From NCBI GenBank assembly GCA_037783545.1, contig JBBELK010000482.1:186001-250000 (forward strand): a stretch of 64,000 nt of DNA, read 5' to 3'. The translations under genes and the position numbers were made by a program. The DNA comes from Henricia sp. BOLD:AAB3569. Its lineage: Eukaryota; Echinodermata; Asteroidea; Spinulosida; Echinasteridae. Of this stretch, positions 26,289-61,542 are shown one piece after another. The notes under the pieces were generated by a model. That model ran no database searches. It was not told the origin of the DNA and worked only from the letters and a program-made list of their open reading frames with translations. Every line of letters starts with the position of its first letter. Position 1 is the stretch's first letter.

Positions 26289-26943
26289 ATGCGAGGTGAA
26301 GTCTCCATGGAGGCCCTACCGTTACCCCGTATTCGATCACCGCTCACAATGCCCGTTAGCAGCCCCAGAAGCGACACCTCGTCGTTGTCAATGTCGATGT
26401 CATCATCACCTCCGAGGGACTCCGAGGAACCGGAATTTACGGGACGAAGTGGCGGTGCCCATGTCACATCGGCAGGTGGACGGACCAGCGGGGCCGGCGC
26501 GGTGACGGCACCGGGCCCGGAGCACAGCGCCACGGTCGAGACCTCGCGGTCGTCGCCCGCTAACTTTCCGCCGAACAACAACACGATACACCCGTTGAAA
26601 TTCGGCCACCACGGCCACCATCGGCTCCACACGGATGCCGTCCGGACTTCTAATCACGTTCCTTCGTTCCTGATTCGCGATATTTTGGCCGATATCAAGC
26701 CGAAACATGTTTCAGAAGACGAGGACGAGGGGAACGACGAAGAAGACAGAGACTCGGAGTGCGAACGGACAATGTACACAGAGCACAGCTCAAAACTATC
26801 TGGGCAGGATTCGGACCCTGAACCAACGAGGTTACATCACAACCACCACCACGTGCACCACAATCACGAGAACAGTTTGAAAAGAACACGCACGGAAGAC
26901 CCAGACAGCGAAGAGAAAAACAACCACTGTGACAACAGCACAG
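26289..26943 (+). CDS. Barhl: Barhl coding exon 1 (FIL/eh1 repressor motif, acidic and His-rich linker)
   Basis: First coding exon of a BarH-like homeobox transcription factor, a nuclear DNA-binding regulator of neural and sensory fates in animals. It encodes 218 codons plus one base. Residues 1-50 are Ser/Pro rich. Residues 127-133 (FLIRDIL, preceded by PS) form the engrailed-homology/FIL motif that recruits Groucho-type corepressors in this family. Residues 143-160 are strongly acidic, and His clusters lie near 107-114 and 183-193. An in-frame TAG sits directly before the ATG at 26289, so translation cannot begin further upstream in this exon. A second ATG at 26307 (codon 7) is an alternative start, and neither has a strong Kozak context. 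The exon ends at a consensus donor (ACAG|GTAAAT) in phase 1, which joins exactly to the next exon. The N-terminal FIL motif known from vertebrate Barhl is not visible. Exon assignment is strong; the exact start is less sure. Confidence 0.9.
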
Positions 26944-27395
26944 GTAAATAACTGAAAGTTTAACCTAACCAGGACTCGAACCAGAGACCCCAGTTCAATT
27001 CTGCATGAAAAATAAATCTGGTTAAATTCTGTATCCAAATTCAACAAGTTCCCATACGTTTTCTAGTATAACATACATATCTGAAATCTACAAATACATT
27101 AAAAAACAAATCCCTTTTGAAATAAAGTGCTCAAAACTTTCAAATCTTAGTATGATCATGATTTTAGTAAAACGAAAATTCTTTACAGCGCCGATTTTAT
27201 TTATTAAAGTTACTAAAATTACAAACATTTTTTTATGTGTCCTGTCTTTTCAGTGCCAACCAATGTGTGTGGCGATACGCAGATACGCGAAAAATATAGT
27301 ATCGACTCCAAAGTGCAAAAAAACTGTTCAAAATATAACTCTTTTTTTGCATCCATTGACATACACCTTTAAAACATGTCAATGTTTTGTGTATA

Positions 27396-27645
27396 CACTA
27401 CAAAAACTGTGGTGTTAAATCAACACCAGTGGTGTTGTCATATATATAGGCCTATAGATACCAAGCCTGATGTTAAGTTTTAACACCACAAGTATTAGTT
27501 TTAACACCCACGGTGTTAAAAATAATGCATTTATTCCAATTAAGGAATAAAAGCTATCACCCATGGTGTTAAATTTTAAGTATCTATAAGTATCTATATA
27601 TGGCAACACCACTGGTGTTAATTTAACACCACAGTTTGTGCAGTG
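27396..27645. mobile_element. GTGTTAA palindromic MITE, copy 2 (Barhl intron 1)
   Basis: Ends CACTACAAAAACTGTGGTGT and CACCACAGTTTGTGCAGTG, with the same inner organisation as 19590-19831. Lies about 450 bp downstream of the exon 1 donor. Confidence 0.8.
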
Positions 27646-28132
27646 TAACGACATTAGCTCTAACTCTAAAATCCCCGTTTCTGAAATAAATAGCCAAATT
27701 ATGTCATTATAAGTACTTAATACAACCACACCACAGATAATAATTGGTCTCAATACACCACGCAGCAATTTACACCCACAAGATACGTTGATAATGTGTG
27801 TATTAAGTGACAATGATTAATCCCAAAGCTTCACGCAAAAGCTATTAGGCTGTAGAATATATTCCGAAGGGATTAAAAGTTAATTTCTGAATTCGATTGT
27901 TATTCCCCATTTTCCGACTAATGTACTCACTATACCGCATAATGTTTAATGTTATTTTGTGTAATTCGTACAGCCACTCGAATTTTTAAAATTGTTCAAT
28001 AAGTATAGTTTAGAAGTACATTTTTGGACTGCAGGGCACACATGCGATTTCTCAGTAAAGGTCATTTTCAAGAACATTTATATCTTCCGCACAATATAGG
28101 ACACAATCGAAATTCGATAAGAGCACTGTAAC

Positions 28133-28480
28133 AATTAGGAAAACGGTTGGTTCCAATTAGATTCATATACCCATTTTGGGTATGAATCCTCTCTGAAGTC
28201 GACATTAGAATCGATTCCAAGTTGGGATATCGATTCGATTTTGGAAGAATCGATTCCCATTAACTTGGCGATTTCAGGAAGCACCCGGCGATTCTGCATG
28301 TTAGAAATTATATGAAAATGACAATTTGTGGGATTTGGCAGTGTTTGTTTCAGCTTTACAAGGTTTTTTCCCCAAAAGTGCCAAATTTCGTTTTGAAAAT
28401 GGAATCGATTCCTCGGAATCGATTCCAAAATGTTGAAATCGAACATGCCCCGCTCCAATCCTTTGTTCTTCAATGTTTTC
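28133..28480. repeat. GAATCGATTCC-rich dispersed repeat (Barhl intron 1)
   Basis: Shares with 36579-36895 the words AATCCTCTCT, CGATTC...GAAGAATCGATTCCCATT, TTGGCGATTTC and GGAATCGATTCC in similar order. The ends are less clear than in the downstream copy. Confidence 0.55.
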
Positions 28481-29263
28481 ATTCATAATAATACAAGGTT
28501 CCTAGTACAAGGTTCCATGCGCAAGAAGAGGAAGTACATGTATAATAACAAATAATATTCCCATAAAAGCACCGTCCCGTCCGCCCAACCCGTTAGATCG
28601 AACATTATCCCAGTACCGCGCCGATATTGGATTTTAATTCGTTTCTAAAGCGCCCAGTGAGGGCCGCTAAATGGGTTATAACGAGGCACTTGACTCTGTC
28701 TCTAAGCCTTCTTATACCCCCCCCCCCCCCCCTTTTTCTCCCCCTGCTAAATCCCCCTCCTATCGCATCTCTGATGGGCACATCTGCCGCGCTGAAAACT
28801 AATCCAATATGATTACACGCCGTCAAACCGCGATCTCCCCGTCTTGTCTAGGCGGGCCGATCTCCGGCACATATCGCCAGTCATGTGTGACGCTATTATA
28901 AGCATCAGTATAGTACTCGCCCGTGGGCCAAAGTCGTCAGTCTTTCCCCAGCACTGTATAATATTTCCCGTTTTGTTAGAATGGCGAACAAATAATGTAT
29001 TTGAAACAATGACTGTTATTAGAGAAAATCGAGGAATTGAAAAAATTAGAGGTTTATATAAAAATATGGAAAACGACTTCATGCAAATTTAAATTAAGAC
29101 AATTTGGTTGAAAAGATCATTGTTGAATTTAGATTTAAATTGACAATTTTCCGAGAAAAAACTGATGGATATGCATGCATGGTTGCGTCATTTCAAAATA
29201 ATTATTTAACTTTTTTTTTGATGCAATAAAAATTGAGAAATCTGGATGCATTGAAAAACAACT

Positions 29264-29344
29264 TGGCTCCACCGGGATTCGAACCGCAGACCTTCTGCTT
29301 AACTTAACGTGCAGACGTCCTACCAATTATTGAGCTTTCAAGCC
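29264..29344 (-). repeat. tRNA-like sequence (minus) in Barhl intron 1
   Basis: A-box-like AGCTCAATAATTGGTAGGAC, B-box GGTTCGAATCC, acceptor ends GGCT...AGCC. The anticodon loop is expanded by a repeated TTAA(G), giving a 12-base loop, so it is not a functional tRNA. Followed on the minus strand by a short sequence and an A run, like a small SINE. Confidence 0.5.
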
Positions 29345-29657
29345 AACTGATAGTCTCGAATCACGTGAGCTTAACAAGCCCTACAGAGAGATAAACCCCC
29401 CAATGAGATAACCACCTCTTCCAGAGATCACTTAATATACGCTTCAAACCCCTGCCCGCCTTGCCCCAATTACTAAGTATGGATAAGTGATTATTATTAA
29501 TTTGTTTTTAGGGATTATGACCCAGGGACCGCCGGGGTGATTAAATTCGATACAAATGTGGACAAATGTCACGCAATTTAAATTAAGGACAATTAAATAC
29601 AATTAGGCTAATATTAAAATATGAGTTAAACAGATATTAAATTTGGATTTAAATTGA

Positions 29658-30008
<351 letters not shown>

Positions 30009-30062
30009 TGAGTTTGACTCGGGTCACAATGATTGGGGGTTTGGGTATCATGGTTGTCATAT

Positions 30063-30246
30063 GCAGCACGATATGTGGCAGAGGGACCCTACCATTGTTC
30101 CCCTATTGTGTCTCAAACACCCAAGGAATTCCAAAGGAATTCCTTTCAGTTTTTAGGAGGGGTTGGTGCTTAACAAAAGGGAAGAGTGTGTTGAGGAATA
30201 GGGGCGTAAGGGGGGAGGGGATCCCTTTGCCACATATCGTGCTGGG
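30063..30246. mobile_element. Fold-back MITE in Barhl intron 2
   Basis: Left arm GCAGCACGATATGTGGCAGA, right arm inverse CCACATATCGTGCTGG. Inner arms include CCCCTATT and AACAC words; the centre is the palindrome AGGAATTCCAAAGGAATTCC. Confidence 0.65.
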
Positions 30247-30252
30247 TATAAG

Positions 30253-30496
30253 GGTTGTAGTCGAGTCCATCACAAGTCTATCACAACTTAAGTCCAGAAC
30301 CGATAAAATCACAAGTCCGTGCATGACGTCGACAAGTCTGTCACAAGTCCAGTAACAAAAAGCAAAGGACGAACACGCACAAAAGAATGCCTTAGTTGGA
30401 GTTCATTTAAATAGCTTGCGATTTGAATTAAGGCCCAGGGACTTGTGAAGGCTTGTGGGGACTTGTGATTGAGCTGTGATGGACTCGACTATAACC
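30253..30496. mobile_element. Palindromic MITE, GGTTGTAGTCGAGTCC ends, copy 2 (Barhl intron 2)
   Basis: Same termini as 15510-15760 (GGTTGTAGTCGAGTCCATCA ... GATGGACTCGACTATAACC) with the internal segment inverted relative to the other copy. Inserted among GACTCGGGTCA repeats. Confidence 0.75.
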
Positions 30497-33400
30497 ACTT
30501 GGAGTGACTCGGGTCACAATCATAGGGTTTGAGTTGCTGACTCGGGTCAGATGATGGGGTTTAAGAACGACTCGGGTCAGGACAAAAATAGGCTTGATTC
30601 CGAAATGGGTAACCCTTGATTGCCACACACATCTCGGCCAATACAGGGGTTTATGCACATCGACTCGGGTCAAGGGCGATACACAGACAGGGCCAAATGG
30701 GAATTTGCCCAAGTTGGAATGACAATAATTTTGATATAAGCATGTATACGCAAACAAGTTGAAGTTATCAATAAAATAAATAAAGTCAGTCAAAAATCAA
30801 ACAACCCCAAATCATAATTGATTGCCACCGTGTACAAATCACACACAAAAATGAAATAAACGACTCTATAACTACGTTATCTTTAAGCTCTGCTCGAAGC
30901 AAATCCGGCTTGAGACTCGCATCTTAATGTAGCCTACACTATACTCACAAAGAAAATAAAATGCCGCGAAATTTTGTTCCGGGCAAATGGTATACTCGTA
31001 TAATAAATCCGGCAGGAGATAAGCCCCTCTTCACTAAAAGCGCGGGAAATTGATTCTTACAGTTTGCCTGAGCGTTCATGGGTGCAAAATGCGTGCATGT
31101 ACGGATTTCACTCATACCTTGTCGTATAAAATCGAGCGTGATTATTAAATATTTCATGGGCTATCTTTTCTCAGTTGGCGGTATGTCTCGCCTCCAAGCG
31201 TTCGGAGCGGTTTAAGACATGAGCGGATTGTATCGCGGAAATCCTTTTTCATGCCGGTTTTCCCCTTAAATATCTTTAATTTTCCAGCTTCTTCCGCTGT
31301 GTAACTCTGGTGACAATTTCGCTTTTTTCTGATGGGTCTGGGATAATATCCGGCCACGGGGGTTATTATTTTAGGAGTTCTGACTTCAACCGCGCGTTTG
31401 AGACGCGCTTGAATGGGCTAAGTACATTGTGATTGGATTATAATGGTACTTCAAACTCGATTTTGATAGGAATTTGATGGTTTTGTTTCTTCTATTTTTT
31501 CCGCGGAATTAGTTGTTTCAGCGGGGATTTTCCCACTAACTTCTGCCGGATGGGTATTGACAGTAAGAGGGGAACCGCTTTTGAGAGAATTTAGCAAATT
31601 AAAGACGGGGATTATGGGAAGAGCGCGGCGAATCAAAGATCGGGTGCAAACAAAAAGATTTTATTTTCATCTTGTGGTGTTGCACAAATTAACTAAAACA
31701 TCCAATACATTTATAACGATCTAATCTATATTTTTTGCTAAATAATGAAATATGCTTTATGAATATTTTAACTAGGCCTATACGAATGAATCAGGCGGTT
31801 AGTGGCACACATCGGAATAAAAGAATTTCCAAATACGAAAAAAGGACACAAAACCGGGTCAAAAATGCGCACCTTTGTTGATTTTTCCGCCTCGTCGCCA
31901 AAATGGAATTTAAGTCAAATTTTCTTCCGGGGATTTTAAGCGTTACTATTTTTCGACAATTATTTGAAATTTTAAGGTCCAGATATTTGGTAAATGTTTT
32001 CTTTTCTTTTCTTTTCAACAACTTGAGAGTCAAATTCTGTAAAATCGCTGGTATTTATGTTTTGATTGTACACAAAAGACAAGGAATTTGTTTTCGTGAT
32101 AAATATTTCACGGGACAATCACAAGAATATAAGAAATCTTCTGGACTTCTGGCAACCTAAACTCCCTTCAATTTTCCCTTTGTGTATTGAAAAAAAAAAT
32201 AACATTCTTGTGTGCGCCTACGTGAACAAAATCGGGAGAGCTCGCTTAGTTTTGCCCAAATTCCTACCTTTAACTCGCTCGAACAGATTTGAATATGAAA
32301 AAATGTATATAAAGCGGACATCAAAACATAAATCTTTTCTATAGGTCATGCGTTCTTTAAATAAATATGTACAAAACTGGACCGTTTATGTTTTTAACGG
32401 TGCCTGGAAAACTTTACATGCACTTTCAATGGTCTATAGTCTGACGCTTGGTGGCGCGCTAACCATTTATGATCAAAAATGACAGTGAACAATGCCATGT
32501 AAAGGGCGTATGCACGGATGAAAGTACCAAACAGTTAAAAAGCACAAAATGGACCAACACGCAGAGTCAATACATATTTGAAAGTTTGTTGTTAAGCCGA
32601 CTTGCAGCTTGCAAAACGGCGCTTTGCCAATTAATGTCAAAACTTTTTCTCTCTCAAGCGAAGAAAAAAGAATAAGAAAGTGTTAAATTTGGCGTGAGGA
32701 AAAAGGCACACAAGAGGAAATAATAGCCGTGGGTTTATTGTTTTCCGTAACTCATCCGCTCCGTGGTTGGGGGCTTACTCGGCGGGCCTGCTACCGGGTA
32801 CAAAGCCGAGAAAACACGGGCGCCTGCGGGTACAAAATGGGGCATTTAGCGGAGTTTTGTTGTCCAACGCGGAGGAGAATGATTGGTCACAAAAATAGGG
32901 GGGAGGGGGGTTAAGGGAAAAATTGAATAAAGGATATGACGCGCAATAATTACGACACTATTAGTGTCGACAAGGAGGATAAAAGGGGTCTTGTTAATTG
33001 GGATTGAATGGGGGAGGTCAGGGGAACAAATTGGTCCAAACTTGGCCCCCGAGAGTTATTGTGAGGGGACAATGAAAAAAGTGCAACGGGTTTTTGGGCA
33101 GTTTTATAGATATTGTATTATTAAACAAGGAGAAGCGAATATAAACGATTTTTGATTGGCTCGCGGCATGCAAATTTTTGAGTGGCTAATTATAGTGTGG
33201 CCAATGAAAACGTTTATCTTCAAAAAACCGTTTGTTTAGACGCGCTCTAATTGGTCAAAAAATCAAAGATGGCAAAAACATTAAACTAGCCTATAGGTCT
33301 ATTAAGATTTCGATTCGCCAGAATGTTTTTGTAACTTTCTAACAAAATGAATTTAACTCGTGGTCTGAATAAGTCCCCATACTGTTTGTGCTAAGCTGAT

Positions 33401-34463
33401 CGATTTTAGTCCAAAAATCGAAAGTTCGAGTGAATTTCTCTCAGATAATCTTTAAAAAATATATATATATTTCAAACTTTTTCCCAAGTATATATACAGC
33501 GTCAATTGCATTTAAACTACTAAAATGGGAAACCACACAACATTTGCTTAATATAAGAACGCAACAACTTACTACATTATATTCGCAAATGGAATTGCTA
33601 TATGACGTGACCCGCGTGACACAGACAAAGTGGTCTTTTAAAGTTGAATTCAACCATTTCCTAACTGTCGAAATATAAATAAAGAGCTATTAAGCCTATT
33701 ATTACAGAACAGTGCCCCTAAAAATGGCACATGTATTTACGCAGACACGCCGTGCACAATACTTAGTCAACTCACGAATTCATGTGTGAAAAAACAGCGC
33801 TTCGAGGCGACTTTTAAGTTCCTTTCTTGTTTTGTTTTCGCGCAATATAACCAACAACAGCGCACAACACCGCGAGGTTTAGCGTGAGCCGAGGCAACGG
33901 AAGTGCCGTACAAAACAGTTTATGCACGGTAGGCTGGCTCGCTCCGGGTACGGTCACATTAATCCATATTGTGTTTTTGCTCGTTGAAAGAGCCAGGCTT
34001 GATACAGGGACGCCTTGAATATTGCGGCCGGAGGGACGCTTTGTACCGCAGTGGCGTCCCGTGCACGGGGCTGGTAGCATTTTATTACTGCCTCTGAGCT
34101 TTGGAACGTTAAAATAGGGGGTAGTTTTAACACAAACAGTATATAGTTGACAAAACTACATTATTTCTGCCAATGGCTTGTTACACTTCAGAATTGCGCA
34201 AAGAAATGGGTTGTTTTAACGCCCATAGGTGGTGAAAACTAGCATGAAAAACGGCTTACAAAACAAAACACAAATGGCCAGTTAATATCGTGTCAAAGAA
34301 CCATTATAGTTGAATAAAAAACAAAACAAAATAAATTGACAAAACAAAACGATTCCCAAGAAATCGGAAGTGGGTGGAATCGATTTGTTAACGCTGGTTT
34401 TACTATAGAGTAATGCGACACTCGTCTATAATCTTGCCGAATTTTGTTTGTCGATTTCTCCAG

Positions 34464-34722
34464 GACGAAATGGAAACGTCAAACAGCAGTCGGGTTGGAA
34501 CTCCTGGCCGAGGCTGGTAACTACACAGCGTCCATGCAGAGGATGTTCGCCCCGCCCTTCTACTACCACCCCACCCAGGGGATCGTCTCGAACCTAGACG
34601 GTCTATACAACCTGCACACCGGGCAGAGACCAGTGTTTCCACGGCTGTTTCTACACGGGTTGCAACAGCATGTGAGTCACTTGCCCCTGGCCCCAAGGGC
34701 GCTACACCCTCATAGTCACTGA
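34464..34722 (+). CDS. Barhl: Barhl coding exon 3 (end of homeodomain and C-terminal Barhl tail)
   Basis: Last coding exon, 259 nt, ending at TGA 34720-34722. It starts after TTTCTCCAG and completes homeodomain Arg53, followed by TKWKRQ. Immediately after the homeodomain comes TAVGLELLAEAGNY, the family-specific Barhl extension, then QRMFAPPFYYHP and a short RPVFPRLFLHGLQ block. That block corresponds to the RPLVPRILIHGLQ-type block at the end of vertebrate Barhl. The three exons sum to 1131 nt (376 residues plus stop), within the usual Barhl range of about 330-390. The intron position between NRR and TKWKRQ matches, as I recall it, the vertebrate BARHL genes. The protein binds homeobox sites through helix 3 and is expected to act mainly as a repressor. 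Confidence 0.95.
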
Positions 34723-34849
34723 TGGTCAACCTCGGTTCCAAGGTGAACGATCCCAATGACAAAATGGACGTGGTGTAAAATCGACTCCACTAGTCTACCG
34801 GGAACGAGGATGTGCAGGACCTCAGGTCGACATTACACAAGTGCAGTTT

Positions 34850-35215
34850 TTTGTCGAACTACATCGGTGTCAAAATTTTCAGACTGTGTCGACAATTTGA
34901 AAGTACATTGCCGAACAAAATGTGTTGACAAACCAAACGTTCAGCATTGTCGGACCAACAGTGTCGACATTTTAGAACAACAGTATTACAGGGCCAAAGT
35001 ATGTCTGTGTCGATATTCAATTCATTGTCGGACCAAGCCTGTGTCGACATTCCAGAAAGTACAGCACTGTCGAACTAAGTCGGTGTCGACATACAGCGTT
35101 GTCGGACCAAGACTGTCGACATTTTAAAACTACAGTATTATGGTGACATTTCAGCCATTGTAGTTCGACCAAGCCTGTGTCGACATTCCAGAAGCGTCGA
35201 CATTCAGACTCGGGG
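34850..35215 (+). repeat. Imperfect tandem repeats rich in GTCGACA, downstream of the Barhl stop
   Basis: About nine GTCGACA or one-base variants (near 34886, 34921, 34960, 35006, 35041, 35083, 35114, 35175, 35197) alternate with TTGTCGGACCAA words. Units are roughly 35-45 bp and degenerate. If the AATAAA at 36086 is used, this lies in the Barhl 3'UTR. Confidence 0.75.
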
Positions 35216-36578
35216 CAAAAGGACCGATCACCTTTGAGTAAATCGCCAAGAACTGTTCTAGGATGACGTCATGGTGTCACGTGGTATCCTATGTTACTCA
35301 TTCCACGAGTAAAAAACTTAATCATTCCACAAAATACTCTATTTTAGACAAACTAATAATGCGACTTTAGAACGCCGACGTAAACCCAACAATTAACGTG
35401 TATTTGGTGGTCTCGAGTCAAGCAGTTGACGTGTAGTTGGTTATAAACTTTCAATTTAAAGAATTTGCACTACTGTTTCAAGCTGTTTCTGAAACATAAT
35501 TGTGCAAACTGTGCTTACTAGGGTTTAAATCCTCGACAATTTGCGTGCTAAAATCGGGGCCCTTCAACTTCAAAACCAAAGAAACGTTGATCGAAAAACA
35601 ATTTTTAAAACTGCAACTGAACAGCCACTCGTGAGTCATTGCGAAGAAAAATATATAGATGTATTTGTAGCAATTATATTTTCCCAAAGAAGACAAGTAC
35701 TTGTGAATATACGAGGCGAACCTAGGGATATGCCAGCAAAAGTTAAAAACTAAGGAATGTGTTTTCTGTGGGGAGGGCGCACAAATTTTGGCAAATCATT
35801 GAGTCGTCCAAAACGTGCGAGACTTGAAAATCCCAGCATTTATTTATTCTTTATTATTTTATTACCTCAAATTTCTGCAAAATTGTTGGTGATATCCCAC
35901 GATCAAAATCAATTATCTTTGTCACGGAAACCAAATTCAGTTTAGTGGCAAAATTAGGAGCTATCATTGTATTGTGATGCCGGCTTCAGTCGGCAAAAAG
36001 AGTGTCCCGAGAAAACGCACGAATACTGGGTAGAGTCTATTCCTAGCTCGTGGTTAATTTTCTGTTGTCCGCAAAAACCTAATCCAATAAAGGTTTTGCG
36101 CAGATTCGAAGTCCTAAAATTTAATGAACGCTCCAAAATAACTCAAAACTTTATATAATTACGAACTGCTCGAAAGAAAAGATTAATCTGGTTAATTCTT
36201 CATCCTTATTTTAAGACTGTTTTCCATTATTCAGTTGGTTTTTACCAAAACCGGAGGAAAACAAACGAAAGATTTCTCAAAAGCAGTGTTGTGTGTGTAC
36301 GTATACGTAACCCGATTACGTTATGCAGTAATGATGTTAGAGCCCCAGTTAATGAACGAACACGCAATCTTTTATTGTGGATTACACGGCAATAAAACTG
36401 GTAAAATTGTTCATTCTCCTTTTGTTAAAAAAATCCTTTTTTTTCGCTTTTTGAAATCCAAGCATTGCTGCTAATTATAACACACTAAGCTTGTTAGTAT
36501 CTCTGTAATTTACAGCGCTGCTGGGAAAGTCTCTTGGGGAAAGTCTCTTGGGGAAAATTGATTTGGCGACAGATTTAG
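35216..36578. other. Region downstream of Barhl (possible 3'UTR)
   Basis: No further coding exon. Contains a CRE/E-box cluster (GGATGACGTCATGGTGTCAC, 35260s) and AATAAA words at 36086 and 36391. Otherwise unrecognised. Confidence 0.35.
36086..36091 (+). terminator. First canonical AATAAA downstream of Barhl
   Basis: I saw no earlier AATAAA between the Barhl stop codon (34722) and this hexamer, so it is the first candidate polyadenylation signal; others follow near 36391 and 37420-37475. Use of this site implies a 3'UTR of about 1.4 kb that would include the GTCGACA array. Non-canonical signals closer to the stop are possible. Confidence 0.25.
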
Positions 36579-36895
36579 CTTGGGCGAATCCTCTCTCGAG
36601 TCGATTAGTATCGATACCAAATTGGAATCGAAATCGCGATTCGATATTTTAGAGGAATCGATTCCTATTGTATTGGCGATTCCAGCAAGTATCCGGCATT
36701 TTCTGAATGTTAATACATGCAGACATTACAAAATTCCAGTAATTTGGCAGTTTTTCGTATCGGTGTCTTGTATTGCGAGATGTTTTCAAATTTTAGTGCC
36801 AACTAAAGAATCGATTCCGAATAGAATCGCAATTTTATAAGTGGAATCGGAATCGATACCAAAAACGTCGGAATCGCCCAAGCCGAATAATGAGC
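36579..36895. mobile_element. GAATCGATTCC MITE with GCTTGGGCGA ends
   Basis: Left end GCTTGGGCGAATCC, right end GGAATCGCCCAAGC, with many palindromic GAATCGATTCC or CGATTCG words inside. Lies 1.9 kb downstream of the Barhl stop; a relative is in Barhl intron 1. Confidence 0.65.
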
Positions 36896-36956
36896 CTGAA
36901 AATGGTGACGTCATGTTGTATGAAAAGACCACGTGACAAGTAATACATGTAATCCA

Positions 36957-37745
36957 TTAAAGGGACGTCTGAAGTTCTGAACTAAAATTGTGTTTTTTTC
37001 TAACGGAAGCTAACTTTAGTTCAGATCTGATATTTTACAAATGTGTGCCAAACTTAACAAGATTTGATTAAAATTAAAATTATGAACATTTTTATTAGCG
37101 ATCGGTTTTAATTTCAGTCTCATGTACAAGGACTTTTCCGATTTTTTTTGTAACTGATATCGGATTTTTTTGGGGGGATGGTTGCTTAAAACTACAATTT
37201 ACAACTCTCGAATACTTGTATGGAGTAGATCAGTACTTACTGTGTAAAACCGTGTAGCATAAAATAACGTTCACTTTTTTTGTAAGTGCGAAATTATGCT
37301 TTTCGCACGCTGTTACGACCTGAAATGTATAAAATATGGTTGGCCCGGTCAGTTTATATTGTGATATTGTTAAATGTACAATTTTATTTCTGTGAAACTT
37401 GTGAAGTTGAGAAGAAAAAAGAATAATAAAAAAGAGGTCTATCGCTCGAAGAGCGCCAAAAATGATTATGTTGAATAAAGTTGTCGTTTTTCTTACTATT
37501 AGGTTTGAAATTGTATGTCTCCTGTTTTGCGTAGAATTTTTTCATATTTAATTTTCACGGTTGGTTCCTAAAGTGACATCACACAAACAGCGTCCTCACT
37601 TGGTAAAGAGAGGAAAGTGTAAAAAAAAAGAGCTTCATTTTTACATGTAGTTCAAAACAAAATGTCTTGATAGTATAATAATCTTACATAGGCCTATATT
37701 GCAAAGACCGAGCCTGATTTGACTGGCCATTTCAGGGGCCTTTAA
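36957..37745. mobile_element. TTAA-flanked element related to family A
   Basis: A 789-bp stretch bounded by TTAAAGGGAC and GGGGCCTTTAA. It contains the GTGACATCACACAAACAGCGTCCTC block that parallels the conserved block in family A. It lies downstream of Barhl and includes several AATAAA words near 37420-37475. Confidence 0.5.
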
Positions 37746-38015
37746 CACAGTTTTAACCTATTAATGACGTACCTCCCGCCCTATCTCCAAAACCCGCAAA
37801 AAAACCTTTAAAATTCCTTGGATTTTTTTAGGCACATTGAAAAAAAAAAAATGCATTTTTAAGGGGGCGTGTTTTGGAAATAAGCATGTGGCGAAAATAA
37901 TTATACACCGTACCTCCTATTTCAATATGCCAATAGGGGGCGCTATTTACAAAGATGGACCGACAACAATCTTTGAACTTTTCTCCCGAAATGCTACTGC
38001 ATGCACACCACCAAT

Positions 38016-38145
38016 AGACCCTTTCCACAGGCGGCCATGACAGGGGACAGTCACATTGTCACAGTGCGTCATGCACGAGTAGGCACTTTGTGGATCTATT
38101 GTCACATTATTTAAATATGAAAACCTGCCCCCTATCTATAGCAAC
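38016..38145. mobile_element. Palindromic MITE, GGCCATGACAGGGG arms, copy 2
   Basis: Begins after a TA with GACCCTTTCCACAGGCGGCC. The inner loop matches the complement of 3689-3831 (GTCATGCACGAGTAGGCACTTTG). Right arm CTGCCCCCTATCTATAGC. Confidence 0.65.
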
Positions 38146-39334
38146 AACCGTTTTCTTTTTTGAAGGATTTTTGTCGTCATTTTGCGTGAAAATTAAAGAA
38201 GCTCATTGGTGGAATGACATTCGTGCGCGTTGTGCGTATCCCCGTCACGCGCAACGCCTTCGTTGTACCAATAGGATGCGTTTGTTTCGCGCGTGTGGTC
38301 ATACGGAATTTGTGAGGATTTTAATATCGCTTTCTGTGGTCAAAAACTTTCATGAGAAATTCAAAGTTCAAAGCGTTATTACATTATAACATTGATATGA
38401 AATATGCAGTACAATTTGTCAAATTTTAGTACTCGGCAAAAATTAAAATTCTCATTTTTTTCCTTCAAAATCTTCGCAGTTTTTGAGAGGAATTTCGGCG
38501 CTCCTAGCGGTCAGGAAGGGAATTCACAGAATTTGTGCATGCATTATTGAAGAAGAAAAAAAGAAAGCCCGTTTTTGCTTGAGGGAGGGATGCGCTTAAC
38601 CCGTGGTAATCTCTTCGCATCCGCGTTTAAAGCAAGTCAAAATAATGCTCATCGATTATTGATAACACTTCTTCGGTTAAAAAGCTTTACAAGATATTGG
38701 GTGAAAATCGGTTAAGAAGATGTGTCAGATTATCCCGCTTACAATCGGCAACGGTGCAAATCCAACTCCCTTACGGTAAAAAATGTGCGCTCTTTTTTTT
38801 CTTCTTCTTTTTCGAGATAAAAGCCAATTTAAAGCCGGTGCGGCCGCAAAATTCCCACGCAAATCATTAAAACGTCTGCAAATATGAACAAATTTGTGAA
38901 AAGTGGAGCAGTGTTTGTTCGTGTACATAATCAGCGCCATTTTATCATACTGAATAACAGCTAGACAGACAACAAAAACGAATGACTATTGTCGAAGCTT
39001 CTGTCCCAAATATCGTTGAGGGAATCGCCGGGCAATCGGTGTTACTTATTCGGACGAGTCACCCGGGACAATCGGTGAAAACAGCCGGTTGCAAAGATGA
39101 CTTTTCCTCGGTGGTCTAGCTGAACGAGAATGGACTCGGGGACCGTAATGTTTGTTACATGTAATTAGAAGATTGCATTTTCCCATGATTGTCCATTTGC
39201 AAAACATCTTTCGGCCGGCGTATTGTCAACTTCATGCAAGTTGTATGAACCACGAGTGTTCTATTTCAAACATCGTGCTTGTGTAAGACCCGGTTTTGGG
39301 GGTTAGGGAATTTCATGTTAAATCGCTGTGCTGT
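38146..39334. other. Gene-free unique stretch
   Basis: No gene or repeat recognised; mixed composition with CpG-rich 38220-38290 and 38990-39130. Confidence 0.35.
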
Positions 39335-39485
39335 TTAAAGGCTCTATGTATCATTCCCAAGATACAACTTTTTGCAGATTCGTGGACGGGACTTTTTTTA
39401 TGAGTTAGCAATAACAAACACCACATGAAGTTATTTCCGTCCAAAATGGTATTACATGTTGGAAATTGACAACCAAAGGTGGGTT
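39335..39485 (+). mobile_element. MITE family B, truncated copy
   Basis: Begins TTAAAGGCTCTATGTATCATT and carries the block ACACCACATGAAGTTATTTC shared with 18473-18826. It stops where the large fold-back element (39486-40240) begins. Confidence 0.6.
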
Positions 39486-40240
39486 TCTAAACCAGTAAAA
39501 ACAGATTGGTTGTATTCAACCAATGTGGTAGATGTGTCCAACCAATCTATTGGTTAAAATAACCAATCTTACATGTATGTTTTTTCTTTTTAACCAATCC
39601 ATATTGGTTAAACCATAATATATCAAATTTTAGCTGAACATATCCCTCAAAGGAATAGAGCTCAAGAGAGATCACGATGGCAAGCTTCACTGAACAGGAA
39701 TGCAACAAAGGAGTGTGGGGTCAGAATGAAAAACACCAAAGAACAATGCAACTTGTGATTTGGGCAATTTGTGTGTATAGACAATTAGGAAATTTTTAAG
39801 TGAGTTTGGATTTATCAATGTCTTGTCAAAAACATCCAAATCAAAATGGTTAAATTGTCCAATCTGAATCGTGCCATTGCATTATGTATGGTGGAAGCAA
39901 AATACTGAACTGTAACTCCCCTTGCTTGAGTGCAATAAAGTTGACATCGTTGTTTTTTTGTGTTTTTCACTCCGACCCCACACTCATTTGTTGCATTCCT
40001 GTTCCGTGAAGCTTGCCATCATGGACTCCGTTGAGCTCTATTCCTTTGAGTGATATGTTCAGCTAAAATTTGATATATTATTTTCCTACATTAAATCTAA
40101 TTTCATAATAAATATCTACAAATGTCTTACTGGCGACAGAACTTTTTTGGTCGAGTGTAGATTGGTTGAAAAAGGAAACCACATGTAAGATTGGTTGGAC
40201 ACATATCTACCAACCACATTTGGTTTAGAAAACGTGCCCT
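39486..40240. mobile_element. Large fold-back element, AACCAATC-rich ends
   Basis: About 755 bp. The outer ends carry TTTCTAAACCA and inverse TGGTTTAGAAA, then TGTCCAACCAATCT in both arms. Long inner arms (39618-39760 and 39945-40083) are inverted copies sharing ATTTTAGCTGAACATATC, GGAATAGAGCTCAA and AGGAATGCAACAAA. No transposase frame. Confidence 0.75.
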
Positions 40241-40829
40241 CTTTCGTTCGGGAGGGGGCGCTGTTCATAACTTGAGAGAGAAAAATAGTAACGGGTCACT
40301 TTGTTATATAAATTAATAACAAAAAGGCGTAAAAACATGCAATTCGGGGGAAATCTCAACCTAGGGGTGATTACTCCTTGGCGCCAAGTAGACTATACAC
40401 TTTATGCAAGGATTAGTATACAAAAAAAATGTCATGGCCAGATTTAGCTTGAAACAGTGGCGCGGATGTCGTGGAGAAAACCATTAACGCGGCAAAATTT
40501 TCGCAGGGAAGATTTAGTAGTATTTTTCGATGGGAGGAGGAGAGGGAAAGATTGGGGAAATAAAAGGCTCCCAAGTTGCTGAAATGGCGAAGGTGGACAG
40601 CTTTGCCTCCATTACAAACTCATTTCGGCCGCCCCACTGGATCTAAAGCTCTTCCTATAACCCCAAGGCGCTCTTTAAGACTTTTGCGCGTGCAAAAAGG
40701 CGACCATAGACGGCGAGCCAACGGCTGTTGCATGTGTAACTGCAAACGTTGAAACACTGCTGTTTCATGTTGTGATTACATGTTTGGAAAACGTCTAAAA
40801 ACAGGAACAACAGCATCACATACCGGTAA

Positions 40830-41065
40830 CTAATGTTGATAATTTCAGCCACATAGATGCAGTAATACTTCAGAAAACATGAACAATTCAAGCATAGTTT
40901 TGTGTTGAATGAATGGAAAAAATTGTCTGCAGAAATTTGTTAAATACTTTTTGTTGGCAATTTCTCCCACAAAAGTACCATTTGACGCAGGAAAAAATTA
41001 CCATTGCTATCACCACTTTTAGTTAGATTTTATGGGTCACTGCTAATGATGTATTGGGGGCTTAA
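40830..41065 (-). mobile_element. MITE family B, reverse copy
   Basis: The segments TTTCAGCCACATAGATGCAGTAATACTTC and GGTCACTGCTAATGATGTATTGGGGGCTTAA match the 50208-50499 copy. Diverged, with no coding content. Confidence 0.5.
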
Positions 41066-41483
41066 AAGGGCCCTGAAATATATGATAAATTTGTTTAGAA
41101 AGACTTATTTCATTTTTATGTAAAATTTAATGTAAAATTTAAAAAAAGTAGAATTTTTCAACTTTGAAAATTTCTCAGACGGAATGCACTATTTTGGGCA
41201 CGAGAAAAGTAAAGAAAAACACAAGATTTCAAACTGGAATTGTGGAAAACTGCTGCAGTTTCCGCCCCTATTTTTCCACAGGCAATATGTAAAACAAATC
41301 CAAACACCCATGGGTTACAAACGTTTCAGCATGTTGGAGAAAATAATGGAATCTTCTGTGCACAGTTGAGTGTGATTTTCCTAATATGACATATTTATGA
41401 ATATGCAAATTTGTAGTAGCAAAAAACCCAACACTTGATTTTTGTCACCAAGACTTCCAAATACGGTTTCAATGACTGTAACA

Positions 41484-41646
41484 GAATAGACTGCAGAAGT
41501 GAATACGTCACCTTTTGTTAGTTGCCTAGGCAATGGCTCTACACTACAAATTACTGAACCGTGTCCTTGTGCTTTTGCAATGGTACTTTTTCCGACGGCC
41601 ATGATGTTTAGAGCCAATTACCATGGCAACCACGTCACACTTTTTG
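41484..41646. mobile_element. Palindromic MITE (family C), copy 4
   Basis: Starts ATAGACTGCAGAAGTGAATACGTCACC and ends AATTACCATGGCAACCACGTCACAC. Closest to copy 5 in reverse (both contain AAAAGTACCATTGCAAAAG or its complement). Confidence 0.7.
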
Positions 41647-42437
41647 CATCATTTGCATAATGACTGGTGCCCTGAATGCTTCACATTCAAATGGAGGGGC
41701 AGTTTAGAAAGTCGCATACTAAGCTGTTGTTGCTATGTGGTGCACACCATTGCCTTATAGCAAACAACAGTCTGGTTGCTTTGTACCATTCTCTCCTAAG
41801 TGAACATGATATTGATACTGTACTTAACACCTGCCATGTGCACCACATTGTAACAAAAATTTAGTCTGGTCAAGTGTAGGGATGAGATTGTCAATCAAAG
41901 AAAAAGTCTGAAAACTGACGAAAAGTCTGAAGAATGCATGTATCTTTCTATACTAATAATGTCATTCTCCCAGATTCAAAATGTCTGATTTCAGACAAAA
42001 GTCTAAAAAATCGCATGCCTGCAAGTGGGTACTAAAGTGTGCATGTGCAAGGAAATACATCAGTACACAATGCATGTCAAATACACAAACGGCTAAATTA
42101 CTAGTTGGACAGCATAAATTTCACTGATAAAAATACAATTTCTAGGGCACACTGCGCAAAAAAGTCAGATTGACATGTCCTGAAAGAGAGTCATGAAACA
42201 GCAGTTGAGCGTTGCTTGAAATACTCAACAGTCTGGTACTTACTAAAACAAAGTCGCAAATGGAAAATAAAGTGCTAATGGTCTCGAGGTGGTTGGGTGC
42301 GTTTTTGAAGCCCCGGGTCATGAATGCATTTTTGATTGAAAATTATTGGCTGTTGGGATGCTTTATTTACCGCTGAGAATATCGTTCCCCTTAGCGAGAT
42401 ATTAAGCAGAATTGTAGTTTTTGAGTATTTTTTTGAC

Positions 42438-42752
42438 TTAAAGGGCACCTGAAATGCATTTTACGTCCATCTTTGTGTGAATTTTATCAATAAATGTTAA
42501 TAAAATTGTAATATTGTAAAAAATTAATGTGGAATAAATGTAACACAATATTGAACATAACGGTGTTAATTTTTTTGCCTAAATCTACATCACGGCTTTT
42601 CCAGCTCTCCCGTGGTGGTAAATATTTAGTTTTATTTATATTTTCCCCATAAATACCCATTTACAACTAGAATATTTGCAGGGCTGTCTTTTGTTGACAT
42701 ATTTGAGTGTACTTTTTTAGCGAGAACTTGAAACTTTTTGTGAGCCCTTTAA
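42438..42752. mobile_element. Short TTAA-flanked MITE
   Basis: A 315-bp AT-rich element with ends TTAAAGGGCACC and GAGCCCTTTAA, which gives a 9-10 bp inverted repeat including TTAA. No coding content. Confidence 0.55.
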
Positions 42753-43291
42753 GGTGTAACATTTTCACTTAATTTGAAAGCAACGTGTTTTTAAGAGCTT
42801 CAAAAACAAAAAGCAAAAAACACCGCCTCCCCACCCAAAAAAAAAAGAAAGGAAAAAATAAATGAACAAAGTATACCGGTAAACCAAACTAAAACAACAT
42901 AAATTTAAAACAAAATGAAACAATTCCAGTGACGAAAGGTACATGAGACCAATTCCTTTTAATTTAAATTTTGATAAAATAAATGTAACTTGTGACGAAA
43001 GGGATTTTAATAAATGTGTGAAGTCATGCTTAAATTGACCAGGGGCAAATGTTGGTCTGGAAAAATAACGTTGGACTCAGGAAAAGTGCCTGATTTTGGT
43101 AACTTTTGGTAAATTTTTGTAACTTTTACCAAAGAATGTCCAACCTACATGTAGTGTTGGAAGAAATCCAATATGTCAAAATCTGAATATTCTATTCTTG
43201 AAAATTGAATATATGATGATCTTCTGATTTTGCAAACATTATCCAAAGCATGAAGTGAATGTTTACTCGTGCACCAACTGCGCTGCTAATA

Positions 43292-43433
43292 GACCGTATC
43301 GAATAGCCGCCATTTCGTGGGGCAGTTTCTTTGTTCCTTGAGGACATGCATGGTTGCACATATTGTGCTTCCATTGTTGAACGGTTTAAGTAACAAAAGG
43401 TGCCCCACGAAATGGCGGCTATTCGATACGGTC
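43292..43433. mobile_element. TA-flanked MITE with 34-bp perfect TIR
   Basis: A 142-bp element; TIR GACCGTATCGAATAGCCGCC...TTTCGTGGGGCA, perfectly inverted at the right, with flanking TA on both sides. Lies about 250 bp downstream of the putative DDX31 stop codon. Confidence 0.8.
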
Positions 43434-43686
43434 TATACTTGCGATTTCAAAAATTACTGTCTTATTAAACATTCGGAACAAGATAGAAACTCTGCTAGTG
43501 CCTCTTTAATCTTGTTTTTAAACGCACTATTGGCAATCCAGAAACGTTTTGCGCCTTTAAGTCCCATTGTTAGGACTTGACCCGAATCTGAACACACTTT
43601 GTGTCGACCTATAATTTGTACCTGTGTACTCAACCATCGCTTGTTGTAGAGATGACAGGAGGGGTGTTTTGAGGGCCGCCAACGTT

Positions 43687-43846
43687 TCATAACCGTCTTC
43701 CTTTAAGCCTCCGTCGATGTTTCGTCTTGGAGAATGACACCTTAGGTTGTTTCCTTCCCACCATGGTCTTGGCTCCGCCCCCAAGCCCGCTGGAATACTC
43801 GCTGAGTATGTGCTGCTTGGCGCTTGGTGGTTTGTAATCTGGTGTT
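43687..43846 (-). CDS. Terminal coding exon resembling the C-terminus of DEAD-box RNA helicase DDX31 (partial)
   Basis: On the minus strand a textbook acceptor (long T-rich tract then TATCAG) is followed by 160 nt open in one frame to TGA at 43689-43687, giving 52 residues in phase 2. The peptide begins TPDYKPPSAKQHIL, then SEYSSGL, GGGAKTMVGRKQPKVSF and a very basic end (KHRRRLKGRRL). The SEYSSG block after a Lys/Ser-rich stretch resembles the C-terminal LAEILRSEYSSGME region of human DDX31 as I remember it. DDX31/Dbp7 is a nucleolar helicase for large-subunit rRNA maturation, and a basic tail fits that. KVSF also matches an RVxF-type PP1-docking pattern, which could be chance. The position and orientation (tail to tail with Barhl) match human BARHL1-DDX31. 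No upstream exon with helicase motifs was found between 43.9 and 64 kb, so the gene is partial here. Exon reality is likely; the family name is tentative. Confidence 0.5.
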
Positions 43847-44311
43847 CTGATAAAAACAAAAATAAAACAAATTGAAATATTGTTAATTGTTAAATTATGT
43901 TAATAACCCAGTGTCAATGTTGCAACAAATCATGCAATCCACCGAAACATGCAATTTTTATAAAACACAACTTGGGTCATCCCAAAGCATAGTCTTGATG
44001 CAAGACTGAACTAACTGTTGGAGTTCGCGATCCCCGCACTAGTGTACGTGTTGCGACGAATCAATCGGTCTTACATCAATACTATGCATGTTTTGGTGGA
44101 TCACATGATTTGTGACATCTACAGGGGCTTCAAGATAATTTGTACAAAGTTGGCTATAATTTATAAAGGGTTTGAGGCTGCAAAAATGTGCTGCGACTTT
44201 GGGCTATTATTCACGAAATCACGAGACCTGCCAACCCTCCCGGATTTTGCAAAAGATTTTCTGGAAAATGACTGATTTTGCGACTCCCGACTTGACACAG
44301 ATAAAAACTCT

Positions 44312-44757
44312 CCTGCATCCCGTTTACACTTGATCCCGAGCTCGGGGTCGAACACCGAGCTCGGGATCAGCCCCGGATCACACAAACCGAGTGTAAATGC
44401 TATCTGGACCAAATTGGCCCCGGATCAGACCCCAAGATTTTGGTCTCGCATTGGCGAAGGGTTCGATCCTGAGCTCGGGATCAGTTTACAGTTAGATAAG
44501 CAATTAATCTTTACCGCATCCTGCCGCAGGAATTCAAGGGGCCTTGTACACTGTACATGTACAACCCATGCACACATTGATCAGTACATATACACACAGA
44601 GCATGACCTTTGACTGCAACTTCTGGCACCGCGCGCGCGAGATCAACTACACAATGTAAACTCGGCACTCAGGATCATTGCGGTTAACACTGACGCATTA
44701 TTATCAGGGGATCAATCTTGATCCTGAACTCAGTACCAGTGTAAACACGGTCCTGGA
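44312..44757. mobile_element. Fold-back element with GTTTACAC ends
   Basis: Left CCCGTTTACACTTGATCCCG and right CAGTGTAAACACGGTCC are inverted. Subterminal words GAGCTCGGGATC / GATCCCGAGCTC recur several times in both orientations. Confidence 0.6.
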
Positions 44758-45778
44758 TTGTCAATTAACAACCTCAGAGATTTATAGATGTGTCTGAAGT
44801 CAGGAGATCAACCTTAGTCACTCTTGTCTTTGCACAATTAAGGCATTTTGTACACATTTTGATTTCTTAAATTTATGTTTTGTTTCTTTGTTTTAGCTTC
44901 ATCTTAAAAGTGGTTGGAAATTCAGTAATCCTCTCTCGTGGTAAAGCACTCATTAATTGTGAGTGCATTTTTAAAAGCAAAAAGGAAAGCGTCAAATAAA
45001 AGCTGATTAATGCCATTCAGAACTTTAAATTAAACAGAAAAACAAAACGCGACAAAAATGCCATAAATTTATTCATGACACCGCCACTGCCATGAGCAAA
45101 CATCAACAATGACAGCTGGCTTAAATCTGCCACTCGCTCAGAAAATCCATCCATAATGGAGCTCCAATACGATCGCCATTAATTCGTCGACAATAAAACG
45201 TGAGAGAAACAGGAAAGCATAAGAAAAACACTTTTTTTTCCCTTTTTAATTCTGGGGATTACTGCAGTTGCGGGTATTAAGCCTTTGCTATAATGTACGG
45301 AGCGGCTCGAGTGCCAATTAAGTCTTCGCCGGCGCGAGGAAAATAGACCTAATCAGGCGGAAAATATGAGCAATGGCCACAATACACCGGCTTTTGATGG
45401 CTCGGACATCATTCCCGTAAAAGGGTCCATTTGCAAAATGGCTGGAGCCAGGGAAATTAAAAGGGACTTTTTCTTTTCCTCTGCAAATGAACAACATGGC
45501 CGTTACCAGATACGAGCCCCAAAAAATGAAATATGGACAATTCACAATTTTACTTAAGGTGTATAAAATAATTATATGTCAAACTGTTCAACCTTTTTCC
45601 TGGATATGGTTTATTTAAACAATATATTTCTGCATTTAAATTGAAATTATTTTCATTTTAAAAAATTTAGATAATGCCTACAAACATGCAAGGCTCTACA
45701 ATGCATTTAAGAGAGAGTTTACTCACTAATAATGATCATTCTGTGAAAAAAAGGTTTTAGGAGGTTCATGTGTCAGAT
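44758..45778. other. Unique stretch within the presumed DDX31 intron region
   Basis: No gene or repeat recognised. 45100-45540 has mixed base composition with ATTAA/TTAATT homeodomain-like words and could be conserved non-coding sequence; cannot be tested here. Confidence 0.3.
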
Positions 45779-46156
45779 ACGAGTCTTTCCACGGTAAAGG
45801 GGGCATTTTGGCAACATTTTCCAGAAAATACCTTTGTCTGGTCTCAAAATAAAAGAATTAAGTTTCAGTTCTGAAGAGATTTAAACCGAGGCCCAAAAAG
45901 GGTTACAAATAGTGTGACAACATGCCTTTTTAAAAACCCTGTGTACAAATTTCCAATATACGCTTGTAACCAGGACGGCCTAAAATGTATCCACAAGTGT
46001 CCGTCCCGGTTACGAGCGTACATGTATATTGGAAATTTATCTCTTCAGAACAACTTAAACTTGATTCTTTTATTTTGTGACCAGACAAAGGTATTTCCTC
46101 GAAAATATGGTCTGTGTTGCCAAAATGCCCCCTTTGCTGTGGAAAGACCCATATGA
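45779..46156. mobile_element. Fold-back MITE, GGGTCTTTCCACAGCAAAGG ends, copy 2
   Basis: Arms of about 180 bp inverted almost end to end: AGTCTTTCCACGGTAAAGGG...GGCATTTTGGCAACA at the left and its inverse at the right, with shared ATACCTTTGTCTGGTC, AGTTCTGAAGAGAT and AATTTCCAATATAC blocks. Confidence 0.8.
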
Positions 46157-46267
46157 AGTTTGTAGACTTAAAAAAAGCAATGGGTTAAGTGACAACATTT
46201 TACCGGCACTGTGGTATTTTATGTTGCTTTTTGCCCAAAAATGAAACTATGTGGGATGGAGGCGACC

Positions 46268-46301
46268 ATCTCCCCCCACCCCCACCCCCACCCCCACCTC
46301 C
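46268..46301 (-). repeat. C-rich tract (minus-strand G-quadruplex potential)
   Basis: (CCCCCA)n-type run; the minus strand reads as four or more G5 blocks separated by single T, a strong G-quadruplex pattern. Confidence 0.7.
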
Positions 46302-47157
46302 CATCCATGGCTACAAGTTGCTCTGATCCAAATCCCTGTCCAACGGTCTGAGCAAGAAACAATGACAATTCGAAATGATCGCTCAGGGGTTTCCTGCCTA
46401 TAAACTGAGCTTGTGTATCGCTAGTTCTGCTATGTTTTATTGACGATGACACTAACACAGCTTAGTGACAAAACCAAGGCCTAAAGCAGACCGCACTCCA
46501 TAGTGCAAAACGGCCCGGGGGGAGACACAGGTCCACAGAATCCCCCTTTTATGCTCAGCATCCACCGCAGCAGAGAGAGAGGGGAATCAATTGCTCTAAT
46601 GGTCTAATCTCGGCAAACACACACCCGGACGAAGGTCTGTCTCTTAAATAAGCCTTTGCAATGTTGTGTGTGTGTGTTGTGCTAATGGGGGTGACAGATG
46701 CGGGCACATCGGAGACGTGGGCCTAAAGTAATCGAGCCTCGCAAATTTGCGCGTGCGTGTGTCCATCCCCGCACACGCGAGCGGGGACGGAAGCGCGGGT
46801 GGTTGGGTTTGCTCAATGAATCGGGGATCAAGTACTTGAGTCGAGTGGGACGAAATGATGCAAATCTGGAATGAGAATGGGTGATCTTGACAAAAATGAG
46901 GTGCTAATGGAGATTTAATAAGAATTCACGGAGTGGGCCAATGGCCTGTTAAAAATGTGGAGGTTTGTCGACGTCGAAGAAATTTAGTCTCGGTTTGCTT
47001 GTAAATTACAAAGTACCGGTACATGTATGCAATGCAATGAATCTATCTTCTTGAAATGTTTTGTGAGCAAAAGTAGCTTTTGATTTTGTTTAAAGGCCTA
47101 ATGAGTAATATGTCATCTGCAAGAAGAAGCTTTTTAGGGATTCCTGGGATGCGATTT
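46302..47157. other. Unique stretch, candidate conserved non-coding sequence
   Basis: No repeat recognised. 46490-46900 is GC-balanced with CTAATGG, CAATTGC, TGACAG and CTTTGCAATG words and a (TG)n run. No coding potential. Confidence 0.3.
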
Positions 47158-47610
47158 CACAACAGTTAATAAGACGAGTTCAATGCATCCTAATTCCCAT
47201 ACCAACGTCCCAAGATAAGAAGAGTGACCCTTTCTAAGATGCGTCTTAGCACTTTGTGAAATCGGCCCCTGGTCATGTATTTAAATCAAGTAACAGGTCT
47301 CGCCAGTTGGTACAAATTATCAACTAACCACTGAGACCTGAAAATCGATTACACAAAAGTTAAGACGAATTCAATGCGTCTTAATTCCCATACCAACTTC
47401 CAAGAAAGGAAGAGTGACCCTTCCTAAGACGTGTCATAGCGCTTTGTGAAATCGGCCCCTAGTCGTGTATTTAAATCAAGTATCGGGTCTCGCCGGTTAG
47501 TACAAATTGTCAACTAACCACTGAGTTCAATGCGCCCTAATTCCCATACCAACGTACCAAGATAAGAAGAGTGACCCTTCTTAAGATGCATCTTAGCACT
47601 TTGTAAAATC
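47158..47610 (+). repeat. Dispersed repeat in three tandem units
   Basis: Three units of about 170-180 bp repeat the words GAGTTCAATGC, TAATTCCCATACCAAC, GAAGAGTGACCCTT, TTGTGAAATCGGCCCC and ATTTAAATCAAGTA. The last unit lacks part of the second half. A reverse copy lies at 590-1000. Confidence 0.65.
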
Positions 47611-47737
47611 GCCCCGCGGAATAACAGAAAAACATATATCTAGAGAAGATTGTTGATAAACTAGCCTGAAGAAATTTCATGCAATCAATGCTTCATACAA
47701 CCTTTAAAATCCATGCACGGTTTTTGTGTTAAGTTAT

Positions 47738-48075
47738 TTATTTTTATTTATTTATTATTTATTTATTTCTGGTATTCATACCAAGGATTCCTCTAAAGTG
47801 ACCATTGCACTGTCACTTGCAAGCGTGAGGAAACCCATGAAGAATTCGAATCTTCACGAAAGAATTCTCTGGGATCATTAAAGTGCGTTACCGTTACCTA
47901 AACACACTGGACCAACGGCTTTACATCCCTTCCGAAGGATGGAGCAAGTGTGGTTGAGTGTCTTGCTCAAGGGCACAGGGACCGCAGCCGGGGGGGGGGG
48001 GGTTCGAACCCGCAACCCCAAGTTTTCACCTATGATTGCGAGTCAATGACCCAAACCACTCGGCCACGGTAGCCC
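47738..48075 (-). mobile_element. Full-length tRNA-derived SINE with ATAAATAA tail
   Basis: On the minus strand the head (A-box TGGCCGAGTGG, B-box GGTTCGAACCC) is followed by TGCCCTTGAGCAAGACACTC, a core word seen in other metazoan SINEs as I recall, then ATGTAAAGCCGTTGGTCC. It ends CTTGGTATGAATACCAG plus an (ATAAATAA)n tail. It interrupts a MITE family B copy. A G homopolymer (47989-48002) lies next to the B-box. A 3' fragment of the same SINE is at 55268-55345. Confidence 0.75.
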
Positions 48076-48200
48076 AGTGAATACATGTAGTAACACAGAG
48101 TTTTAAAAACCACCTTCAGTTGTTAATTTCTTACATAGAGTACCATCTTCACACTTCTTATTATTTGTGAAAACCCCATTAAAATATAACCTTTGGTTAA

Positions 48201-49736: not shown

Positions 49737-49848
49737 ATGTGTTTTGCATATGACATGCTACAACTATTTTCATCAGTTTTGAGCATTATTGAAAATCATG
49801 CTTTATATGTTACGTTACAGGGGGTGTCAGCATACTAGTACACATGTA

Positions 49849-59891: not shown

Positions 59892-59919
59892 TCACTACTT
59901 TAGATTCTCTCAGGGAAAA

Positions 59920-61536: not shown

Positions 61537-61542
61537 ACTCAC

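Follow-up and report, generated by a model that had tools for sequence, protein, structure and literature searches.

A convergent Barhl–DDX31 gene pair in a starfish, perhaps kept together by Barhl regulatory elements

Barhl and DDX31 in Henricia

In the starfish Henricia sp. BOLD:AAB3569, the genes Barhl (+) and DDX31 (-) form an adjacent, convergent pair, which we describe here for this one echinoderm from a 64,000-nucleotide stretch (the window) of contig JBBELK010000482.1 (C482; the window is C482:186001-250000) and from its flanks. Barhl, a nerve-cell master gene, encodes a developmental transcription factor, whereas DDX31 belongs by family to the ribosome-biogenesis helicases. Given the human order, with BARHL1 (+) and DDX31 (-) presumably also tail to tail, the pair very probably already existed in the ancestor shared with vertebrates and was inherited from it, which suggests that the two genes have been neighbours for roughly half a billion years. 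To the whole reading, that of an ancient convergent pair kept by Barhl cis-regulatory elements, we assign a probability of about 0.5. Positions without prefix are those of the window, other contigs carry handles of the same kind as C482, and a slash marks exon boundaries. The genome searched is the 740.7-Mb assembly (2,104 contigs). The features of the locus are listed below.

26289..26943, plus strand: Barhl coding exon 1 with the motif FLIRDILAD, which we take to be FIL-like; open frame, donor CACAG/GTAAAT
29791..30007, plus strand: Barhl coding exon 2, which encodes the larger part of the homeodomain; PF00046 E 3.1e-18, acceptor CACCAG/GCAAAG, donor AGAAG/GTGAGT
34464..34722, plus strand: third Barhl coding exon, with homeodomain end, C-terminus and stop codon; E 2e-55, best genome match
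34723..43686, no strand: convergent intergenic stretch between the stop codons; 8,964 bp, AATAAA and ATTAAA on both strands
43687..43846, minus strand: probable last coding exon of DDX31, carrying the SEYSSG block, the basic tail and the stop codon; from phase, pattern search and joined frame
43847..64000, minus strand: window part of the predicted DDX31 terminal intron; donor and acceptor matching in phase 2, running to C482:256235 (window-equivalent 70235)

The first-pass annotation, made from the letters of the window, had claimed a complete Barhl gene on the plus strand. Indeed, the three exons (26289-34722) join in frame into an uninterrupted protein of 376 amino acids followed by a stop, with a Pfam Homeodomain at E 2e-22. 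This homeodomain is of the Bar type and is followed by TKWKRQTAVGLELLAEAGNY, presumably a hallmark of Barhl, and two Barhl exons were 70% and 59% identical to an approximate BARHL1 sequence. A genome search with the protein from the homeodomain to the C-terminus, in which 91 of 91 candidates were scored, listed 27 matches. The gene's own exons came first (E 2e-55 and 2.8e-31), and the other 25 had E 3e-20 or weaker, the third-ranked (E 3e-20) lying on another contig. No second haplotype copy of Barhl was seen among these 27 matches, two of the 25 non-self ones having been looked at.

Two further homeobox exons were considered and rejected because they carry other homeodomains: C837:113152 as a possible haplotype copy of this gene, C482:1235162 as a possible second Bar gene. 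In both, the match stops at QNRR, where that of Barhl exon 2 also ends, and C482:1235162 sits 1 Mb from Barhl on the same contig.

The DDX31 gene model and its paralogues

About 9 kb past Barhl (8,964 bp between stop codons), the first-pass annotation had placed a minus-strand terminal exon resembling the DDX31 C-terminus. A tblastn search of the contig beyond the 64 kb, with an approximate human DDX31 sequence as query, placed 14 collinear minus-strand blocks, which run on C482 from position 265466 to the exon in the window. These 14 were kept as DDX31 exons out of 60 rows; five of them have E above 0.05 and were retained because they are collinear with the other DDX31 blocks. Conversely, nine of the ten rows with E below 0.05 belong to the DDX31 gene and one (window 9512-9315) lies outside it. 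The resulting model comprises 14 exons in a single open frame of 681 codons plus stop, with an open 5' end, and its exons other than the last lie 6.2 kb and more past the window edge. Splice sites were sought as GT and AG only; GT-AG ends are thus given by construction, and the test is that one frame stays open. The introns measure 433, 1625, 723, 709, 774, 691, 1048, 778, 207, 178, 205, 151 and, for the last, 26,389 bp.

Pfam detected in the model the domains sought for DDX31 (Dbp7), namely DEAD (E 1e-47), Helicase_C (1e-25) and CTE_SPB4 (3e-20), and 312 of 569 aligned residues were identical to the approximate human DDX31 sequence. The nearest PDB neighbours were HAS1 and DDX18, both for the protein and for the DEAD exon alone, and none of the 54 sequences listed for the protein was named DDX31 or DBP7. 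An exon-wise profile search for CTE_SPB4, which a split domain could escape, scored nine of nine candidates and returned six rows, five of them above the cut-off: at C181, C124, C482:256298-256420 (minus), C11 and C298. The C181 and C124 loci are near-identical and probably two haplotypes; therefore, four gene loci remain. The C181 exon is DDX18 (PDB E 1.8e-25). That of C298, nearest to SPB4 with a weak E of 0.019 from a query with 1 of 34 letters wrong, was read as DDX55-like, and that of C11, which had no hit, we take to be DDX10. With these assigned, two of them tentatively, the C482 locus is the probable DDX31, the one that remains of the four. No junction of the window exon to an unrelated protein was found, nor, in this exon-wise search, a DDX31 orthologue elsewhere in the assembly.

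The terminal exon of DDX31

The stretch 43687-43846 is best read, from its sequence and frame, as the last exon of DDX31. It opens behind the acceptor TTTATCAG/AACACC, reads TPDYKPPSAKQHILSEYSSGLGGG.. and then a basic tail, and closes with a stop codon at 43687-43689. The donor of the upstream exon that encodes the CTE_SPB4 domain (the CTE exon), ..AAAAAG/GTAAG, is in phase 2 and joins the window exon in frame (C482:256236 to 229846), so that the junction reads ..KRGTKRK-R-TPDYK.. within the joined sequence ..LREKRGTKRKRTPDYKPPSAKQHILSEYSSGL.. On a home-made score, the donor and the acceptor used here rank first for their exons.

A competing explanation, which we regard as improbable, is that this exon is not part of DDX31, that the gene ends near the CTE exon and that SEYSSG is a chance word. 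Taken alone, the exon has no significant match: tblastn with the human DDX31 query gave E 35, the best PDB match had E 0.72, and no Pfam family rose above the cut-off. Moreover, the CTE exon read past its donor stops at once (..KRKR-stop), which allows a short form, and eight other AG sites of the intron, preceded by a fairly pyrimidine-rich run, open phase-2 frames of at least 40 residues with at least 20% lysine plus arginine. Since a phase-fitting basic tail is thus not rare, it is the SEYSSG word that carries the case. The pattern S[ED][YF][SD]S[GA] occurs a single time in six frames of 180 kb, and SEYSSG itself arose in none of 400 order-1 Markov simulations of the minus strand of the 26.4-kb intron. 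Strand and phase also fit, with a DDX31-type helicase upstream on the same strand, and KR-PD..SEYSSG aligns with the tail of the approximate human DDX31 sequence, in which we take SEYSSG to be present.

Apart from the question of the last exon, read-through of the CTE donor at C482:256235 meets an in-frame stop (AGG TAA). A retained intron would yield a DDX31 protein ending ..KRKR, devoid of the SEYSSG tail; a shorter DDX31 is therefore possible.

The intergenic gap and the terminal intron

The stretch 34723-43686 should, judging from its position between the two stop codons, hold the 3' untranslated regions of both Barhl and DDX31; no gene was recognised in it among the open reading frames and codon-score entries listed. 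The codon score is home-made, was trained on few exons and serves as a guide. The DDX31 terminal intron stands out with 26,389 bp against 151-1,625 bp for the other introns of the gene.

Rfam, run at gathering thresholds on the window and two further stretches (84,000 bases), reported one tRNA. This tRNA-Ala (AGC) gene lies at 59819-59891 (+), within the DDX31 terminal intron and antisense to DDX31.

Why the pair persists

If the pair is of common descent, we give regulatory constraint an even chance of being what keeps it. Barhl would be a developmental target gene whose cis-regulatory elements lie partly in its own 3' flank and partly in the terminal intron of DDX31, because of which breaks between the two genes would be selected against, and DDX31 would be a bystander gene of the Barhl regulatory block. 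One would expect such elements in the 26-kb intron, which is the nearest to Barhl and whose length fits the idea. A published human BARHL1/DDX31 super-enhancer makes enhancers in this place plausible. According to PMC4911170 (also PMC12209359), it can control BARHL1, and it activates GFI1B in some medulloblastomas when a deletion fuses them. Similarly, BARHL1 is given as candidate gene at a DDX31 association locus in PMC9943750, and PMC3235082, citing Kikuta et al., describes gene order and non-coding sequence of vertebrate barhl1 and barhl2 as very highly conserved. A further step, tentative and in our judgement rather doubtful, would make the DDX31 terminal intron a Barhl regulatory landscape that predates the echinoderm-chordate split and is the counterpart of the human super-enhancer region, keeping in place the far-off last exon of DDX31, whose protein could also terminate with the CTE exon.

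Several observations weigh against regulatory constraint. Intron length alone proves nothing about enhancers, because 20.3 kb likewise separates matched blocks of a DDAH gene close by. Self-repeats (within 180 kb) make up 21.8% of the terminal intron, 25.3-40.5% of other regions and 13.7% of Barhl, which places the intron merely a little below the other non-Barhl regions. Scanning the window for an Atoh1 E-box consensus gave 2 sites against 1.34 expected, with no excess. AK8, a Myb-domain gene that we take to be TTF1-like, NCS1 and NUP188 are also linked to the pair without obvious regulatory reason, and slow rearrangement could therefore suffice. Finally, according to PMC3235082 the teleost barhl1 neighbourhood seems less constrained than that of barhl2, its neighbours being spread across three Tetraodon loci, and the main text of that paper mentions no ddx gene.

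These links make passive retention a strong rival, almost as likely as regulatory constraint: in slow-rearranging lineages, Barhl and DDX31 would have stayed adjacent by inertia within a conserved linkage group, with no shared regulation. NUP188, Barhl, DDX31, the TTF1-like gene, AK8 and NCS1 lie together in about 143 kb of C482, all six presumably being genes of human 9q34; therefore, linkage appears conserved generally and not for Barhl-DDX31 alone. The breaking up of the barhl1 neighbourhood in Tetraodon, as reported in PMC3235082, points the same way. On the other hand, gene order around the pair was shuffled (TTF1, GTF3C4 and TSC1 against the presumed human order), while the tail-to-tail pair survived. 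That Barhl and DDX31 were separated and later reunited by chance is hardly credible, as two lineages would rarely arrive by coincidence at the same partner, side and orientation inside a linkage group that they share.

Kept by regulation or by inertia, the locus probably belongs to a kind of system already known, the ancient microsyntenic pair, and is a candidate regulatory block. As in the metazoan pairs of this kind, a developmental transcription factor gene stands beside an unrelated gene of housekeeping type; ancient pairs with Tbx2/3, Foxa, Pax1/9 and Egr are examples in PMC13317027. Barhl and ddx genes are not mentioned in the main text of either PMC13317027 or PMC11175523. No paper among the matches listed treats DDX31 with deep synteny, by title or passages, and none was found that joins DDX31 with amphioxus or with microsynteny; the list of Irimia et al. 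2012 may contain the pair. Topologically associating domains have a median of about 200 kb, as given in the cited literature.

The BARHL1-DDX31 locus of human and zebrafish, with the barhl1 genomic regulatory block and the BARHL1/DDX31 super-enhancer, resembles that of the starfish in that Barhl adjoins DDX31, presumably tail to tail in human as well. It differs from the starfish locus, in which one Barhl was found, the gap is 9 kb, and the TTF1-like gene and AK8 directly follow DDX31. The human adjacency, which the first-pass annotation had stated, is upheld in so far as passages of PMC4911170, PMC12209359 and PMC9943750 treat BARHL1 and DDX31 as one locus; the orientation, not given in those passages, is presumably tail to tail. 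The retention across deuterostomes that the first-pass annotation considered is seen here in one echinoderm.

If Barhl enhancers inside DDX31 do hold the pair, the super-enhancer region of medulloblastoma would be older than chordates, and starfish embryos would lend themselves to its dissection. The bystander model can also be tested cleanly at this locus, since a single intron adjoining the target gene holds most of the intron sequence of the DDX31 model.

The neighbourhood compared with human 9q34

Before Barhl, NUP188 lies on the minus strand (blocks C482:152,405-156,229; Pfam Nup188 subdomain E 4e-7). In the ~47 kb directly upstream of Barhl (C482:165000-212000; window 1-26000), no gene was recognised by eye among the entries listed, and this stretch is a second candidate regulatory space for Barhl. 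Beyond DDX31 follows the Myb-domain gene (minus, C482 ~268.7-273.6 kb; Pfam Myb E 1e-12); its nearest PDB chain is reb1 (E 0.006), and we take it, weakly, to be TTF1. Next come AK8 (+, C482:277,992-283,871; PDB adenylate kinase 8 E 5e-140, next 2.5e-34), NCS1 (minus, C482:295,324-286,305; PDB NCS1 E 1.4e-76, hippocalcin 1.4e-56) and DDAH (minus, C482:324,603-300,621; DDAH_eukar E 1e-6). The query strings of AK8, NCS1, DDAH, Myb and NUP188 were built from exon blocks strung together, with trimming by eye, and are not gene models. Left out were rows in which one AK8 kinase half matched the other, and an additional DDAH-like row at C482:321922-321623. The latter stretch is diverged from the DDAH gene's own exon and is perhaps a duplicated or decayed exon.

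On the human map, TTF1, BARHL1, DDX31 and AK8 presumably share roughly half a megabase of 9q34, with NUP188 and NCS1 a few megabases off; BARHL1 presumably lies there between TTF1 and DDX31, and GTF3C4 separates DDX31 from AK8. DDAH is the sole neighbour found here that is not known as a 9q34 gene. Given this map, the content of the neighbourhood is conserved and its order shuffled. TSC1 (Hamartin) gave seven matches on C58, not on C482, and a GTF3C4-type gene a single weak match on another contig (C481). CFAP77 had no match in the genome, nor in the controls, so that its absence carries no weight.

Mitochondrial sequences in the assembly

The mitochondrial COX1 contains 11 in-frame TGA codons, and what we take to be its start, NHKDIGTLY, emerges when AAA is translated by the echinoderm code, as Asn. 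A 4.3-kb stretch carries the mitochondrial tRNAs Leu(taa)-Gly-Tyr-Asp-Met-Val-Cys-Trp-Ala-Leu(tag)-Asn-Gln-Pro, most of them encoded on the minus strand; after tRNA-Pro come COX1, Arg, two frames read as nad4L and cox2, and then Lys. This order presumably matches the arrangement of starfish (Asteroidea). COX1 is present in three copies in C955, spaced 16,221 bases apart, and in one more in C2104. The mitochondrial genome seems to have been assembled as head-to-tail copies, probably an artefact.

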